From the NCBI GenBank assembly GCA_030740795.1, contig JASLWO010000056.1, positions 1 to 64,000 on the forward strand: DNA of 64,000 nucleotides, written 5' to 3'. Numbering within the stretch: the stretch's first letter is position 1; each line of letters starts with the position of its first letter. The notes beneath the pieces were generated by a model. It was not told the origin of the DNA. It searched no databases and saw only the letters and a list, made by a program, of their open reading frames with translations. Positions 15,179-22,587 of the stretch are shown here, piece by piece. The stretch comes from Acidimicrobiales bacterium (GTDB lineage Bacteria > Actinomycetota > Acidimicrobiia > Acidimicrobiales > UBA8592). Made by a program: the position numbers and the translations under genes.

Positions 15179-17086
15179 TTACCAGCCGCCGCCGCCACCG
15201 CCGCCACCGCCGCCGCCGCCACCGCCGCCGCCACCACCGCCTCCGCCGCCACCACCACCGGAAGATCCTGACCCCATAGAGGCATCAAGCGAAGTGGAGT
15301 GGGCGTTGAAGGCGGCAGCATGAATACACCAAGTGTAGGCATAGCCGACAGTTGGGTCGGCAAGGTGATCTCTTGAAACATCTTTCATGATGTTATTCCA
15401 GTGGTCTATTTCTCCTAGAGCAACGGCCCAAGCAGTGTATTGGCGAAGTGTTCCATTTTCAGCTGCTTCTTCAACATGTCGGGCTTCAGATGTTTGAATG
15501 AATTTTTTGAATCCCTGTATCTGAATCCATAATCCTGAACCCTTTGGCGACCTAACAGCTAGTTCCCAGCCTCGAAATAGAGATGCTATAAATACGCCCA
15601 TTACAAATGAAAACGGTAGGTAGGCGAGAGGGCCTAGAAAATAGCTCAAAGGTGCGAAGGCGAATAAGGAAGAAAGGAAAAGGTAAGCAGATACGTTTCC
15701 ATTCGGTTTTTTATGGGTCCAAAGATCAGAGTCTTCTTCCCAAAGTGTGAGTTCTTTGTCCAATTTTTTCCAACCTGGCAAGAAACCATGTCCGGATAGT
15801 TCTTCGGTTTCCGAATGAAGAAGGTACAGAACAGGATTTTTTAAATGTGCTTCATGTCCAAAGAAATACCACAACGATGAGTACTTCTCGGGAGGTTCTT
15901 TTGAAACATATTTGAATTTAGCTCCGCTTTTTCCAACCATTTCAATTTTTTCATCAAGAACCTGTGATAGAAACCAGGCTTGTTTTGCTTCTTTGGTAAC
16001 TTCTTCGTCAACAAGAATGGCCCCATGATACGGAGTGATATCTTCAGGAGGGACAACGCTGAGCGTTACAAGTTTTTCCATCGCCACATTACTCAACGTT
16101 TTTGTCGGACCTTCACTATTATCTGCAAAAGCAGCTTCCGTAGCCCCTCCGCTGCGGACGATATCTCTTCCTCTAAATAAAATCATCCGATTCATTGCTA
16201 CCTTGCCGAGGATTGCGAGAAGAAGAGCTAATCCAATATATTTTATGTTTCTTGAAACTGGATGTTTCCCATCGTTTTGCGAAGGTGCTTTCGGCGGGGG
16301 AAGAAAATCTGCCGTATTGTCCGCGTCCAATGTTGAAACTTTAGCTCGAACCCAGACACCGGTATAGCTATCTAAGTTCGAAGCAGTGACGATAGTTATT
16401 GAACCATTTTGGGTTACCTGACAGCCATCACTATTACTTGAGAAATTATCAGGGTCTGAACTCCCAACAGCACATTCGGGTTCAATAAGCTTTTTGCTAT
16501 GTTCGATCTGAATAGTGGCAGTGTCAATCTTCCAATCCCAGCGTTCCGGGACTGCTATCCAGCAGAACGGGACTGTAGCCCCATCTATATCCCCTTTGTC
16601 ATTTTCTCTTGTAAGCCCGCAACGAGAATCGTCACCTCCTGAGATTGCATTTGGTTCAAATTGGTAATCGATAATGTACCGGTGGATTCCATAATTATCC
16701 TTGTCGGGGTCCCCTATTACCAAGCATGCGTTTCGGGTTCCAAGCGAGCACCCTCCTTTAAATTCAGCGATCCCACTATCATCCAAAATTCTTAAATCAT
16801 CTGGTGCGTAGGGTGAGAAAACATTATCTACTTCTAACAAATCCGGTATTTCTCTCCAGATCCCCCGTTGATCTGCGGCAGAGAAATCTGTGTCGATTAT
16901 TTCTGATACTGAGGTTGTAGTGACACCTTCATCGTTTTGCGAAACGACAGCAGTTGTATACCACGACTTTGTAACTTGAACTACGACACAATATTGCACG
17001 ATTAGTAGTACTACTAGCGCTGATATGCTGATTGCGCTGAGGATCCATGATCGGACAGCTTTTTTCTGGTTCTTAATTTTAAACAT
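15179..17086 (-). CDS. DUF2207-like membrane protein with C-terminal poly-glycine tract
   Basis: N-terminal TM segment, extracellular domain, further TM segments, C-terminal GSGSSGGGG(n)GW as in DUF2207-type proteins. Confidence 0.7.
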   Translation of the reverse strand: MFKIKNQKKAVRSWILSAISISALVVLLIVQYCVVVQVTKSWYTTAVVSQNDEGVTTTSVSEIIDTDFSAADQRGIWREIPDLLEVDNVFSPYAPDDLRILDDSGIAEFKGGCSLGTRNACLVIGDPDKDNYGIHRYIIDYQFEPNAISGGDDSRCGLTRENDKGDIDGATVPFCWIAVPERWDWKIDTATIQIEHSKKLIEPECAVGSSDPDNFSSNSDGCQVTQNGSITIVTASNLDSYTGVWVRAKVSTLDADNTADFLPPPKAPSQNDGKHPVSRNIKYIGLALLLAILGKVAMNRMILFRGRDIVRSGGATEAAFADNSEGPTKTLSNVAMEKLVTLSVVPPEDITPYHGAILVDEEVTKEAKQAWFLSQVLDEKIEMVGKSGAKFKYVSKEPPEKYSSLWYFFGHEAHLKNPVLYLLHSETEELSGHGFLPGWKKLDKELTLWEEDSDLWTHKKPNGNVSAYLFLSSLFAFAPLSYFLGPLAYLPFSFVMGVFIASLFRGWELAVRSPKGSGLWIQIQGFKKFIQTSEARHVEEAAENGTLRQYTAWAVALGEIDHWNNIMKDVSRDHLADPTVGYAYTWCIHAAAFNAHSTSLDASMGSGSSGGGGGGGGGGGGGGGGGGGGGGGGGW

Positions 17087-17999: not shown

Positions 18000-19166
18000 T
18001 TATATGTTCTTTGAAACTGATTCAAGAACACGTTTATAAGTTGAGTGGTAATGATGGAGAGCTGGCTCGTTCCTTCCAAAAATAACAGTCTGGAGAGCGT
18101 GACTATTCGCGTTGACTTGCTGACTTGCGCCAACTGCATAATCCTCATCTCGAATAACTTTAGCGAAGCCTTCAGAGATCATCATAAATATTTCTCTCAT
18201 CTCAGCATTAGCTGCAAATTCGGACCGTAAGTAGAAACTTATGAGTGAACGGTGCTTTCCCGGGTCATCAGGGTCGGGATACGCTCTCACCAGATAAAGG
18301 CCTTCCTTCGATGGCATCAACTGAATATTTGGGAATAACCAATACACGGGAAGTGCAGCTGTCGTAATTTTCCATTCAGCTTCTGGAAGACTACGCATTT
18401 CATCAATATCTCTACGGCATAGAAGCATTCTATGATTATCCCCAAACGTGTCGTAGCACTGAACATTCCCATGGAAAGAGTTGTACAAAGTCGTTTCATG
18501 GAGGGAACTGAAATGATATGTTTCCCCGAAGGTATCCATTGCCAATTTCCAACTACATGCCACGTCATATGTGTCGCTACCTAAAAAAACCAGATCTTTA
18601 AGATTCCATGTTTCAAGCTCTGAGAGCAGTTGCGGGGTAAGAAGATTCTCAAGATCAATCTGTCCATCAGGATCCGGATGCACCCATAACAGGCCGTGTC
18701 TCTCCTCAGAAGGAAGCTCAAGTAAACCAAACTTTTCAGTTTCTAGTTCTCCGAAGTGGTCCTGCTTAGGAAGTCCGACAAGTGTCCCATGCGCATCATA
18801 TGTCCAGCGGTGAAACTGACACGTAAAGCGTTTTGATATCCCGCGTTCTTCTTCTTCAACGACTACTCCGCGGTGACGACAGGCATTAACGTATGCGTGG
18901 AACTGTCCTTTACCATCTCGTACAGCGAGAATAGGTGTCCCTAATTCCTGGATCGTCAGAAAGGAATAATTTTCAGAAAGATCCCCAGATAATCCAACTA
19001 GTTGAGGGGTATCACAAAAAAACGTTTTCCATTCTCTCCCGGCTAAGTTTTTATCCGTATAGTTACTGGTTTGATTTTCATATATTTCTCCAGCATCAAC
19101 ATTCGTTCCAGTATCTAACCTATGCAACAGTTTCTTTATCTGAAGAATCTGCTCAGTTTTTTCCAT
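18000..19166 (-). CDS. Rieske [2Fe-2S] aromatic ring-hydroxylating dioxygenase alpha subunit
   Basis: CRHRGVVVEEEERGISKRFTCQFHRWTYDAHG Rieske motif; catalytic domain DTFGETYHFSSLHETT. Confidence 0.92.
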   Translation of the reverse strand: MEKTEQILQIKKLLHRLDTGTNVDAGEIYENQTSNYTDKNLAGREWKTFFCDTPQLVGLSGDLSENYSFLTIQELGTPILAVRDGKGQFHAYVNACRHRGVVVEEEERGISKRFTCQFHRWTYDAHGTLVGLPKQDHFGELETEKFGLLELPSEERHGLLWVHPDPDGQIDLENLLTPQLLSELETWNLKDLVFLGSDTYDVACSWKLAMDTFGETYHFSSLHETTLYNSFHGNVQCYDTFGDNHRMLLCRRDIDEMRSLPEAEWKITTAALPVYWLFPNIQLMPSKEGLYLVRAYPDPDDPGKHRSLISFYLRSEFAANAEMREIFMMISEGFAKVIRDEDYAVGASQQVNANSHALQTVIFGRNEPALHHYHSTYKRVLESVSKNI

Positions 19167-19256
19167 GTAGATAGATTAGCTAACGCCAATGAAAATCAAT
19201 AGTTTGAATTTGATATTTGAAAAAAATGAAGAATTGACTCCGCTGGTTCCGGATAT

Positions 19257-19278
19257 TTGTTAAGTTCGTTCTTAACAA
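19257..19278. promoter_or_regulatory. perfect 8-bp inverted repeat TTGTTAAG-ttcgtt-CTTAACAA in a divergent promoter region
   Basis: read directly; lies between the divergent genes starting at 19166 (-) and about 19433 (+). Confidence 0.55.
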
Positions 19279-19283
19279 CACAT

Positions 19284-19413
19284 AGGTGGAAGGGGGGTTA
19301 CCTTGCACTATCACGTGTATACGCCACCTTGAAAGAGTAACTAATACTTGATTAAGGCGTCAGCGTGCATGTGAAGTGTTGAACTCTACAACGTGCGTTG
19401 GCGTCTTTTTTTT
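19284..19413 (+). ncRNA. candidate structured leader or sRNA ending in a Rho-independent-terminator-like hairpin
   Basis: AGGTGG (19284-19289)/CCACCT (19324-19329) helix; GGCGTCAGCGTGC (19356-19368) pairs fully with GTGCGTTGGCGTC (19393-19405) using five G-U pairs; then T8 (19406-19413). Confidence 0.55.
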
Positions 19414-19432
19414 ATGCGTGAGAAACTATTCT

Positions 19433-20023
19433 ATGCCTCGAATTGATCCGATTGCGGAAACTGAAATCTCTGAAGAAATCCGAGAGCGCTTTGTCTTTAT
19501 TGAACAAGTCATGGGTTTTGTTCCTAATTCTCTTAAGACAATGGCGCGTATCCCCGGATTAGTGAAGGCATTCACAGACTTAAGCTCTGTTGTTTTAGGA
19601 AATGACATATTGCCAGCAGAGTTGCGCTCAATGGTTTCCCTTATGGTTAGTAGTGGAGCTGAATGCCGTTATTGTCAAGCTCATTCCACTTCTTCTGCTG
19701 CACGAGCTGGCGTTAGTGATCAAAAATTATCTGACATCTGGAACTTTGAAACTAGTGATCTCTTTCCGGAGCCGGAACGAGTTGCGCTCCGGTTCGCGTT
19801 TCACGCCGGACAAATTCCTAATGCTGTCACGGATCAAGACATGGAAGCATTACGAGAGCATTACGACGAACAAGAAATTACTTCGATTGTCTCTATCTGC
19901 TCATTATTTGGCTATTTAAACCGGTGGAATGACACTATGGCAACCCAACTTGAAGAACACCCAAAAGATTTCTCATCAAAGATACTAGGTCCACGAGGAT
20001 GGGAATCAGGGAAACATTCTTGA
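19433..20023 (+). CDS. carboxymuconolactone decarboxylase / AhpD-like peroxidase-related protein
   Basis: SSGAECRYCQAHSTSSAARAG CxxC motif; start MPRIDPIAE preferred to track start 19376. Confidence 0.88.
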   Translation: MPRIDPIAETEISEEIRERFVFIEQVMGFVPNSLKTMARIPGLVKAFTDLSSVVLGNDILPAELRSMVSLMVSSGAECRYCQAHSTSSAARAGVSDQKLSDIWNFETSDLFPEPERVALRFAFHAGQIPNAVTDQDMEALREHYDEQEITSIVSICSLFGYLNRWNDTMATQLEEHPKDFSSKILGPRGWESGKHS

Positions 20024-20095
20024 AGCGTAGATCTATGCTAATCCTTTCTAGAATACGATGTGGAAACTACCCATCTACGAATTCTTGGCGGTTTA

Positions 20096-20386
20096 ATGTT
20101 TAAGCGAAGAAAATGGTATTGCCCTACATGTGGTCATGAAACCAGTATGTTTCCAATCACTGACCCTCCGGAATGGTTCAAATCAGCTTTTGAAGATTGG
20201 GAAGATAATGACGGCAAACAAGCAATCCTTGATTGGTTTGATAATGGGCCAAATCTGAGATTAAAGACACATGCAAAACTTGTCCCTGAATGGTATGACT
20301 GCGAATCATGCGGTCATGATTGGCATTTTAAAGGATTCCCTGTAAAACGTTTCACGCCACCAAAATTCAGTGATAGAAGCGACTGA
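20096..20386 (+). CDS. small zinc-ribbon-like hypothetical protein
   Basis: YCPTCGHE ... CESCGHDWH paired Cys motifs. Confidence 0.6.
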   Translation: MFKRRKWYCPTCGHETSMFPITDPPEWFKSAFEDWEDNDGKQAILDWFDNGPNLRLKTHAKLVPEWYDCESCGHDWHFKGFPVKRFTPPKFSDRSD

Positions 20387-20419
20387 GATTGTGAATCTTC
20401 ACGCAGGAAAGCGGTAGGA

Positions 20420-21256
20420 ATGGACTTTCCTGGCTCCACTGGTCTTAATGGAAATCCTTTAAGAGAAATAAGTGACTCTGAATGCGATGCTTATAAAACT
20501 GACGGAGTTGTTTGCCTTAGGAGTGTCTTTGATAGCGGTTGGGTTGATTGGCTCCGTGATGCTTTCGCTTTAGCGCTTCAAACCCCTGGTCCTCTTTCAG
20601 AGGAATACACTCCAGTGGGCAAAACTGGTCGTTTCTTTACTGATCTTAATATGTGGCAGCGACTAGATCATTTTAAAGTCTTCGTCTTTGAGTCGCCGGC
20701 GGCCAAGGTCGCTCAAAAGATTATTGGCACAGTTGATATTAATTTTTTTTATGATCAAATGTTTATTAAACATCAAAGAACTGAGGAGCGAACTCCTTGG
20801 CATCAGGACCAGCCTTACTGGGCTGTAACTGGGCAACAAGTGTGTTCTATCTGGTTGCCTTTAGACGCTATTGAAGAAGATTCCTCTTTAAAGTTTATTA
20901 AAGGAAGTCACCGATGGGCAGCTCATAATCCTCATCACTTTGCAGATGACACTCCTTATGAGGAAACTGGTTTACCTGAACTACCAGATATAGAGAACAA
21001 TCTGGATATATATGAGACTATTTCTTGGGATGTTAATCCTGGGGATTGTTTAGTGTTCCATGGCATGATCGTTCATGGGTCTTATGGAAATTCAAGTTCT
21101 AAATTATCCCGCCGGGCTTTGGCAACCCGCTGGTGTGGGGATGATGTTCGATTCTTTCGTAGGAAAGGAGAGGTAGCGATACCTACAACAGACCCCGGTT
21201 TAAAGAACGGGGATCGACTGGATTGTGACCTATTTCCTCGTATTGAATTAGATTAG
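20420..21256 (+). CDS. phytanoyl-CoA dioxygenase (PhyH) family protein
   Basis: TPWHQDQPYWAVTG, CSIWLPLDAIEEDSSLKFIKGSHRW, PGDCLVFHGMIVHGSYGN. Confidence 0.93.
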   Translation: MDFPGSTGLNGNPLREISDSECDAYKTDGVVCLRSVFDSGWVDWLRDAFALALQTPGPLSEEYTPVGKTGRFFTDLNMWQRLDHFKVFVFESPAAKVAQKIIGTVDINFFYDQMFIKHQRTEERTPWHQDQPYWAVTGQQVCSIWLPLDAIEEDSSLKFIKGSHRWAAHNPHHFADDTPYEETGLPELPDIENNLDIYETISWDVNPGDCLVFHGMIVHGSYGNSSSKLSRRALATRWCGDDVRFFRRKGEVAIPTTDPGLKNGDRLDCDLFPRIELD

Positions 21257-21298
21257 GACACCGCCGGCGGCTTCTAATTACAAGTTTTTATTTGCTGT

Positions 21299-22441
21299 TT
21301 AGCAGGAGTTTTCCATGGTTGCGATGAAGGCGTCTTCAGCGGGAGATAAAGGAGTTCCTGTTCCTCGATAATTTTGGAATGCTGAAGCTCCGTTATGGTA
21401 CGCGGTAAGTGCATCTGCGAATTGTTCTTCACCACCGAAAAGTTCTTGAGCATCGGTTCTCCATGTTCCACATGGGCGAAGTACGTTATAGGAATACGCA
21501 TGGGCAGCTTCATGGGTAAGGATGTCTTCGAGCCTTCCGGATTCAAAGCCACGATTAGATATCCAGATTGTTTTTTTCCATTCTTTCCCATAGGAACCGT
21601 CCGTGTCCCACCCTGCGGAATCCCAGACGCCATAAGGACAATGTCCTAGTTCTTGATGGCTATACGAGTGACATCCGTTTATTACTGTGACTTGAGTTAG
21701 AGCTGTTCTTAGTTCTGCTGGGAGTTCTGCAACCGCCGAATCTATTTCATTCTGATATTGACCTTCATATCCGGGATAACAAGTAAAACCGGAACAGGTG
21801 TTAGGGGGAGTAGTTTCTTCGATAGTTTCCTGTTCAATCTCTTCATCTTCTTCTTCAACTTCTTCTTCAGCCTCTTCAACTTCTTCTTCAACTTCTTCTT
21901 CAGCCTCTTCAACTTCTTGTGGAATTACTGGAACATTAATTGTTACGAGAGCACGCTCTTGAAGAGCTTGCAGATGCAGCGTCCTTGTGTATGCTCCGTA
22001 AATTCCGTCAGGGGTTGTCCCTAAGTATTTCTGTAACTCTTCTACACGTATTGATTTTTCCCCAAAATCGTATGTGTCAGTGAGAAGGGATACGAATAGC
22101 GCTTCAATCCTTGCAGCTTCCATTAATGCCTTAACATTCTCATCTTCAAAAGGTTCTTTTTCGGTATCACCATCTTCAACTGGCTGTTCTTCAAAGACCG
22201 CTGTTTGATCGTCACCTGGTTTGATTGTGGTTTCTTCTACCTGGAGAGTTTCAATGACTTTATGTTGAATTTCTGACTGATGCGATTGTGGTGTTTGGAT
22301 GAGTTTTTCATTTTCTATCGATTGGGGATCACTCGGGGTAGCTGTTGTTTGGTTGAAACATCCTGTTGCTATTACCGTGCAAATAAGGAGAAGGGACCCA
22401 ACCTTCTTCTGTAGGTTTCTGTTTCTTCTATTTTCTTTCAT
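21299..22441 (-). CDS. secreted lipoprotein: peptidoglycan-binding-like region, Glu-rich linker, HExxH metallopeptidase-like domain
   Basis: lipobox-like VIATGC; LQKYLGTTPDGIYGAYTRTLHLQAL; (EE)n linker; ILTHEAAHAYSYN. Confidence 0.65.
   Translation of the reverse strand: MKENRRNRNLQKKVGSLLLICTVIATGCFNQTTATPSDPQSIENEKLIQTPQSHQSEIQHKVIETLQVEETTIKPGDDQTAVFEEQPVEDGDTEKEPFEDENVKALMEAARIEALFVSLLTDTYDFGEKSIRVEELQKYLGTTPDGIYGAYTRTLHLQALQERALVTINVPVIPQEVEEAEEEVEEEVEEAEEEVEEEDEEIEQETIEETTPPNTCSGFTCYPGYEGQYQNEIDSAVAELPAELRTALTQVTVINGCHSYSHQELGHCPYGVWDSAGWDTDGSYGKEWKKTIWISNRGFESGRLEDILTHEAAHAYSYNVLRPCGTWRTDAQELFGGEEQFADALTAYHNGASAFQNYRGTGTPLSPAEDAFIATMENSC
21836..21915. repeat. low-complexity repeat encoding the EEVEEAEEEVEE linker
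   Basis: repeated CTTCTTCAACTTCTTCTTCAGCCTCTTCAA units. Confidence 0.75.
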
Positions 22442-22460
22442 TCTTTTGTACTTCCTGTAC

Positions 22461-22487
22461 CTATTATAATAATGGTTATTATAATAG
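22461..22487. promoter_or_regulatory. perfect 12-bp inverted repeat CTATTATAATAA-TGG-TTATTATAATAG
   Basis: read directly; intergenic, immediately upstream of the 22441 (-) lipoprotein start and about 100 nt before 22588 (+). Confidence 0.6.
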
Positions 22488-22587
22488 TTTTAAAAGGTTG
22501 GATTATCAACAAAAGTGACCGAAGTCTCATCACCCTAGGAATCTACGCGAAACCTTCGCTGGGTCTTGGTTACGATACGCTGGACCC

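Follow-up and report, generated by a model that had tools for sequence, protein, structure and literature searches.

Attenuators are usually regarded as parts of the genes they control; the rnTrpL/peTrpL leader of Sinorhizobium meliloti sits ahead of the trp genes. The terminated leader RNA of that system carries a short open reading frame (ORF), and its products can act elsewhere (PMC7298713). Leader-peptide attenuators of the trp/his/ilv type, for example that of ilvBNC of Corynebacterium (PMC11857589, PMC10272879), combine a short ORF and its Shine-Dalgarno sequence with competing 1:2, 2:3 and 3:4 pairings and an intrinsic terminator. According to one account (PMC2965389), attenuation in cis is usually argued from linkage to one gene. 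In upstream ORFs that sense translation stress, such as the one ahead of topAI (PMC12121999), occupancy of a very short ORF is proposed to set the structure of the RNA, and dual-function small RNAs with a short ORF are independent small transcripts with a terminator.

Here we analyse an element in the window, a 64,000-nucleotide stretch of DNA from an Acidimicrobiales bacterium, to which coordinates refer unless labelled otherwise. We found a conserved unit with a short ORF, conservation of its frame, competing pairings and varied loci. The chances seem to us even that this is a free-standing, genus-specific small RNA gene whose attenuator-like fold depends on translation of the mini-ORF.

Extent, structure and distribution of the RNA

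We predict that the hairpin by which the locus was recognized forms the 3′ end of a conserved RNA, about 130-150 nt long. Its arms, GGCGTCAGCGTGC (19356-19368) and GTGCGTTGGCGTC (19393-19405), pair at 13 of 13 positions, five of them G-U, and are followed by a T8 tract (19406-19413, plus strand), the presumed 3′ end of the RNA. Arms and tract were read directly, and the hairpin as a whole (19356-19405, plus strand) is identified from sequence, fold and covariation. The plus strand is assigned to the RNA because of the G-U pairs. The 5′ arm is better conserved than the 3′ arm (96% versus 87%), and the T tract is shortened or broken up in several relatives. Folding of a 201-nt RNA gave -60.7 kcal/mol versus -49.7 for shuffled sequences (z -2.7; 3 of 200 shuffles as good). 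An upstream helix, AGGTGG (19284-19289) with CCACCT (19324-19329), closes hairpin 1 (19284-19329, plus strand). Both the 13-pair hairpin with its T8 and this helix had been described in an earlier, sequence-only reading of the window, and both were confirmed.

Hairpin 1 hardly varies: its 47 columns have a mean identity of 98% in nine copies, and 98.8% of its helix cells are paired in ten. The middle hairpin 2 (19335-19349, plus strand; GAGTA at 19335-19339 with TACTT at 19345-19349) is rebuilt from other sequence in relatives (UGAGUA/UACUUA, UAAGU/ACUUA, AUGCAG/CUGCGU and AGUAUUUAC/GUAAAUAUU; in the DNA letters of diverged copies TGAGTA/TACTTA, ATGCAG/CTGCGT and AGTATTTAC/GTAAATATT). The consensus fold consists of hairpin 1, the middle hairpin and the terminator; with the diverged copy of genome G017 included, 95.7% of its pair cells are paired, and eight pairs are doubly changed compared with 1.6 in shuffles (0 of 500 shuffles as high), which supports the structure.

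When 60 relatives were searched at the DNA level, the element turned up in the genomes of seven congeners in addition to the window's own, with 85-91% identity over the aligned part and flanks that mostly can no longer be aligned. Because this identity is kept despite diverged flanks, and because the structure covaries, the element goes beyond chance. A covariance model of nine copies (R1) matched nine of 20 family genomes, G017 among them, with a single copy in each except G005. With G017 added to the model, a copy in G004 surfaced at a weak score (E 0.135), and was accepted because the conserved upstream motif, GGTGG, the G-run, the ORF and the terminator are all present. A further model, the third, covered the 5′ module; it brought out the sister of this copy in G011 and scored G004, which was in its training set, at 1.3e-6; E-values of the models that we built are rough. 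Eleven of the 18 congeneric genomes thus have the RNA, with twelve copies between them; in the other seven no copy was detected, and the genomes are metagenome assemblies, most of them incomplete. Weak matches in G009 and G010 were rejected because they have neither motif nor ORF and overlap the end of a gene for a transporter-binding protein together with its terminator; antisense matches, which arise from the symmetrical terminator hairpin, were rejected too. G005 has two nearly identical copies (L031, L040), each beside an almost identical Rieske gene; they are probably strain variants assembled apart.

Under strict filters, model searches of 397 genomes of the order and 395 of the class gave no match outside the genus, and no copy of the core pattern was found in viral contigs. 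Those matches that have names are metagenome genomes, either of marine Acidimicrobiales or labelled Microthrix. At the gathering threshold, Rfam 15 had no match in the window, neither a known family nor a riboswitch class; the best match below it (Spy392987, 18.1 bits versus a threshold of 47, E = 1) is at chance level. No tRNA or tmRNA was found in the window. Judged by sequence, the element is a new RNA family, encountered in a single genus, whose parts make it a variant of kinds already known.

A probable promoter region (19234-19270, plus strand) contains TTGACT (19234-19239) and, 16 nt further on, TTTGTT (19256-19261), which overlaps the conserved GTTAAGTTCGTT (19259-19270). We take the two hexamers as candidate -35 and -10 elements; a promoter scan found no consensus site in the region. 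Most copies of the RNA are preceded by GTTARGTTCGTT or a close variant. As a regulon promoter, GTTARGTTCGTT was rejected: its other occurrences in eight genomes lie in unrelated sequence and look like chance. An inverted repeat, TTGTTAAG-ttcgtt-CTTAACAA (19257-19278, plus strand), is kept in most close relatives, whereas G001, G004 and G011 have lost it or have other sequence in its place; possibly it is a 5′ hairpin of the RNA or an operator. The predicted RNA probably starts at about 19260-19275 and ends in the T tract. The window copy lacks, at 19234-19256, a CACGC/CACGT-like motif that several relatives carry about 10 nt 5′ of the presumed -10 and that may be bound by a regulator.

The mini-ORF and the competing folds

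The gene to the left of the element (18000-19166), which encodes a Rieske oxygenase, is directed away from it. The sequence-only reading, correct as to this direction, concluded that the terminator has no upstream gene to terminate, a conclusion that is incomplete because a nine-codon ORF sits 5′ of the terminator. That reading had missed both the mini-ORF (8-9 codons across copies) and its Shine-Dalgarno run, which lie inside hairpin 1, the hairpin enclosing the run and most of the ORF. The mini-ORF (19303-19332, plus strand) reads TTG CAC TAT CAC GTG TAT ACG CCA CCT TGA, that is, (f-M)HYHVYTPP-stop, and the Shine-Dalgarno-like AAGGGGGG (19290-19297, plus strand) lies 5 nt 5′ of its start codon.

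In 12 of 12 copies, divergent ones included, the start, stop, frame and Pro-Pro-stop of the mini-ORF are kept along with the Shine-Dalgarno run, a run of G5-G6 placed 4-6 nt ahead of the start codon. GGTGG and the start are 16, 18, 19 or 20 nt apart, which places all frame-breaking indels 5′ of the start, and the length of the ORF itself varies by 0 or 3 nt only. TTG is replaced by ATG and TGA by TAA, and several third-position changes are synonymous; several other codon changes alter the residue (His/Tyr exchanges). The resulting peptides are LHYHVYTPP (in two codon variants), LDTHVYTPP (G001), M(M)HHYVHTPP (G017) and MRHLPKPP (G004, G011). We regard this pattern as good but not conclusive evidence that the mini-ORF is translated.

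No run of a single residue that could serve as regulatory codons is present in the mini-ORF. Pro-Pro-stop is kept, yet its conservation has two possible causes, because hairpin 1 has the Pro-Pro codons as its 3′ side; as CCACC is fixed by that hairpin, Pro-Pro could be a mere consequence of the structure. Translation termination can stall at a C-terminal proline, as stated in PMC7246954 (citing Hayes et al. 2002). A literature search for Pro-Pro-stop leader peptides under those words found none.

The mini-ORF is also the alternative partner of the terminator 5′ arm. Region 2 (19305-19325, plus strand), a part of the ORF, can pair with the arm and loop (19356-19379), GCACTATCACGTGTATACGCC with GGCGTCAGCGTGCATGTGAAGTGT. 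In the window copy this duplex has -26.6 kcal/mol (z -3.1, p 0.003 against shuffled partners). The 2:3 duplex goes beyond shuffles (p <= 0.013) in eight of the 12 copies, among them those of G004 and G011, whose sequences are very different; G016 is a marginal case (0.04), and G001, G002 and G017 fall short of significance. The copies are related, hence these are not twelve independent tests. When the growing transcript was folded, 17-24 ORF:arm pairs were present in the window copy before the 3′ arm of the terminator was made. The same order, ORF:arm pairing ahead of the last arm, was seen in eleven copies and intermittently in G017, and most copies show the terminator once it is complete. 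The 2:3 helix scarcely varies within close copies and thus gains little covariation support of its own. These competing pairings are predicted to form an attenuator layout of the ribosome-controlled type.

Genomic setting and possible function

The gene order is Rieske, RNA, CMD in the window and G016, Rieske, RNA, PhyH in G007, and EamA or Rieske, RNA, heliorhodopsin in G002, G005, G008 and G014. The CMD-family (CMD/AhpD-like) gene at 19433 follows the RNA in the window and G016 only. In G001, the nearest genes past the RNA are convergent. G017 has, ahead of an ORF for a small secreted protein at a distance of ~300 nt, a second hairpin and T tract (L039, about 1738-1790, by eye); in G011 another terminator-like hairpin follows the RNA's terminator, as does GACCGCC-TTCG-GGTGGTC-CTTTT (read by eye) in G004. 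Immediately upstream of the RNA, G004 and G011 have a co-directional gene, which the terminator could also serve there. There are four locus types, with CMD, PhyH, heliorhodopsin or no usable gene downstream and no constant downstream gene; in three of them no near downstream gene is free of further terminators or convergent genes. Conservation of the RNA is independent of its flanking genes, which differ among the four types and mostly cannot be aligned.

Several further features of the neighbourhood were observed. The 252-265 aa membrane protein adjoining the RNA in several relatives is a heliorhodopsin (in G002, L084:5265-6062, minus strand; PF18761, E = 1.6e-87). Gene content between the RNA and an EngB-type GTPase gene (22588) varies (window 19414-22587, L084-L087), with CMD and PhyH in the window, PhyH and another gene in G007, and heliorhodopsin in G002, G005, G008 and G014; the interval looks like a small variable island. 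In G011, on the strand of the RNA and ~1 kb past it, lie genes for tRNA-Gln and tRNA-Glu (L082:5373-5537, minus strand); a 207-aa ORF that had no Pfam match precedes them. A 635-aa membrane protein encoded in the window at 15179-17086 (minus strand) ends in a long glycine run and then tryptophan.

The sequence-only reading had offered an attenuator for the gene at 19433 or a small RNA gene. The second option is the better supported, by four locus types with differing or no downstream genes; the first lacks support as a general statement, because that gene adjoins the RNA only in the window and G016. The mechanism that we propose would begin with a strong ribosome-binding run in the 5′ hairpin, ahead of an 8-9 codon ORF ending in Pro-Pro-stop. 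Region 2, the RNA of the ORF, could pair either with region 1 (the GGTGG side) or with region 3 (the 5′ arm of the terminator), and region 3 would otherwise pair with region 4 to give the terminator. Region 2 would be covered by any ribosome on the mini-ORF, whose termination after Pro-Pro would probably be slow, and the terminator hairpin would form; RNA without translation would pass through the 2:3 form. Since the folds with and without a ribosome would differ, the fold should report translation of the mini-ORF. We infer transcription, translation, slow termination and the switch itself from the conserved features. Most locus types have no gene downstream that could be switched, so an action in trans, by the RNA or by its ribosome-bound form, would be the most likely. 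The fuller proposal, in which an RNA gene with its own promoter has its fold picked by a ribosome on the Pro-Pro-stop mini-ORF and serves in trans as a reporter of translational state, is tentative, and we hold it as a possibility well short of even.

The main rival at the window-type locus, unlikely in our estimation, is a cis leader-peptide attenuator of the adjacent downstream gene (CMD/AhpD-like at 19433, PhyH or heliorhodopsin in relatives), in which a ribosome on the mini-ORF would permit the terminator and its absence would lead to a 2:3 antiterminator and read-through. The mutually exclusive pairings have the layout of an attenuator, and seven genomes have a co-directional gene that begins 20 to ~70 nt past the terminator (up to ~150 nt past the ORF stop). 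However, the downstream gene changes, G001 has only convergent genes nearby, and in G017, G004 and G011 further terminator-like hairpins come ahead of any gene; the start codon at 19433 is not preceded by a clear Shine-Dalgarno sequence, and linkage to one gene, the usual argument (PMC2965389), is missing for this RNA.

Somewhat less probable is an ordinary trans-acting structured small RNA in which the mini-ORF is an untranslated by-product of G-rich and CCACC structural motifs. The near invariance of hairpin 1 as RNA (98% identity), its helix fixing CCACC, and the His/Tyr exchanges would suit it, whereas the start, stop and frame are kept though frame-breaking indels do occur, all of them 5′ of the start, and ATG and TAA replace TTG and TGA. 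A tiny messenger for a functional signal or effector peptide of 8-9 residues is highly improbable: the strong Shine-Dalgarno run and terminator of an apparently separate transcription unit would fit, but the peptide varies strongly (HYHVYTPP to RHLPKPP) while the RNA pairings persist, and it has no export signal. A metabolite riboswitch, the remaining suggestion of the sequence-only reading, is hardly credible, for all that a conserved structured RNA lies ahead of genes in some genomes, as nothing points to ligand binding, Rfam gave nothing above chance level, no regulated pathway is consistent, and the Shine-Dalgarno run, ORF and helices explain the conserved core.

Relation to described systems

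If the preferred reading is true, a genus-wide RNA with the anatomy of an attenuator and changing neighbours would be a translation-sensing RNA turned gene of its own. The element is also a clearly bounded, putatively regulatory RNA family of uncultured marine Acidimicrobiales that lends itself to testing and is not represented in Rfam. With trp/his/ilv-type attenuators it shares the short ORF with Shine-Dalgarno run, predicted competing pairings and the terminator; it differs in that no amino acid has a run of regulatory codons and no fixed biosynthetic operon lies downstream, and in that its ORF is itself region 2. Like rnTrpL/peTrpL, it would be a terminated RNA with a short ORF; unlike that leader, still part of the trp operon, it has no constant partner gene, and its role in trans is putative. 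The very short ORF whose occupancy would set the structure of the RNA recalls the topAI-type upstream ORFs, although no regulated stress gene recurs across the loci here, and any stall site or inducer would be hypothetical. With the dual-function small RNAs it would have in common an independent small transcript, a terminator and an ORF, all predicted here, and it stands apart from them in that this ORF has just 8-9 codons and lies inside the switching helix.
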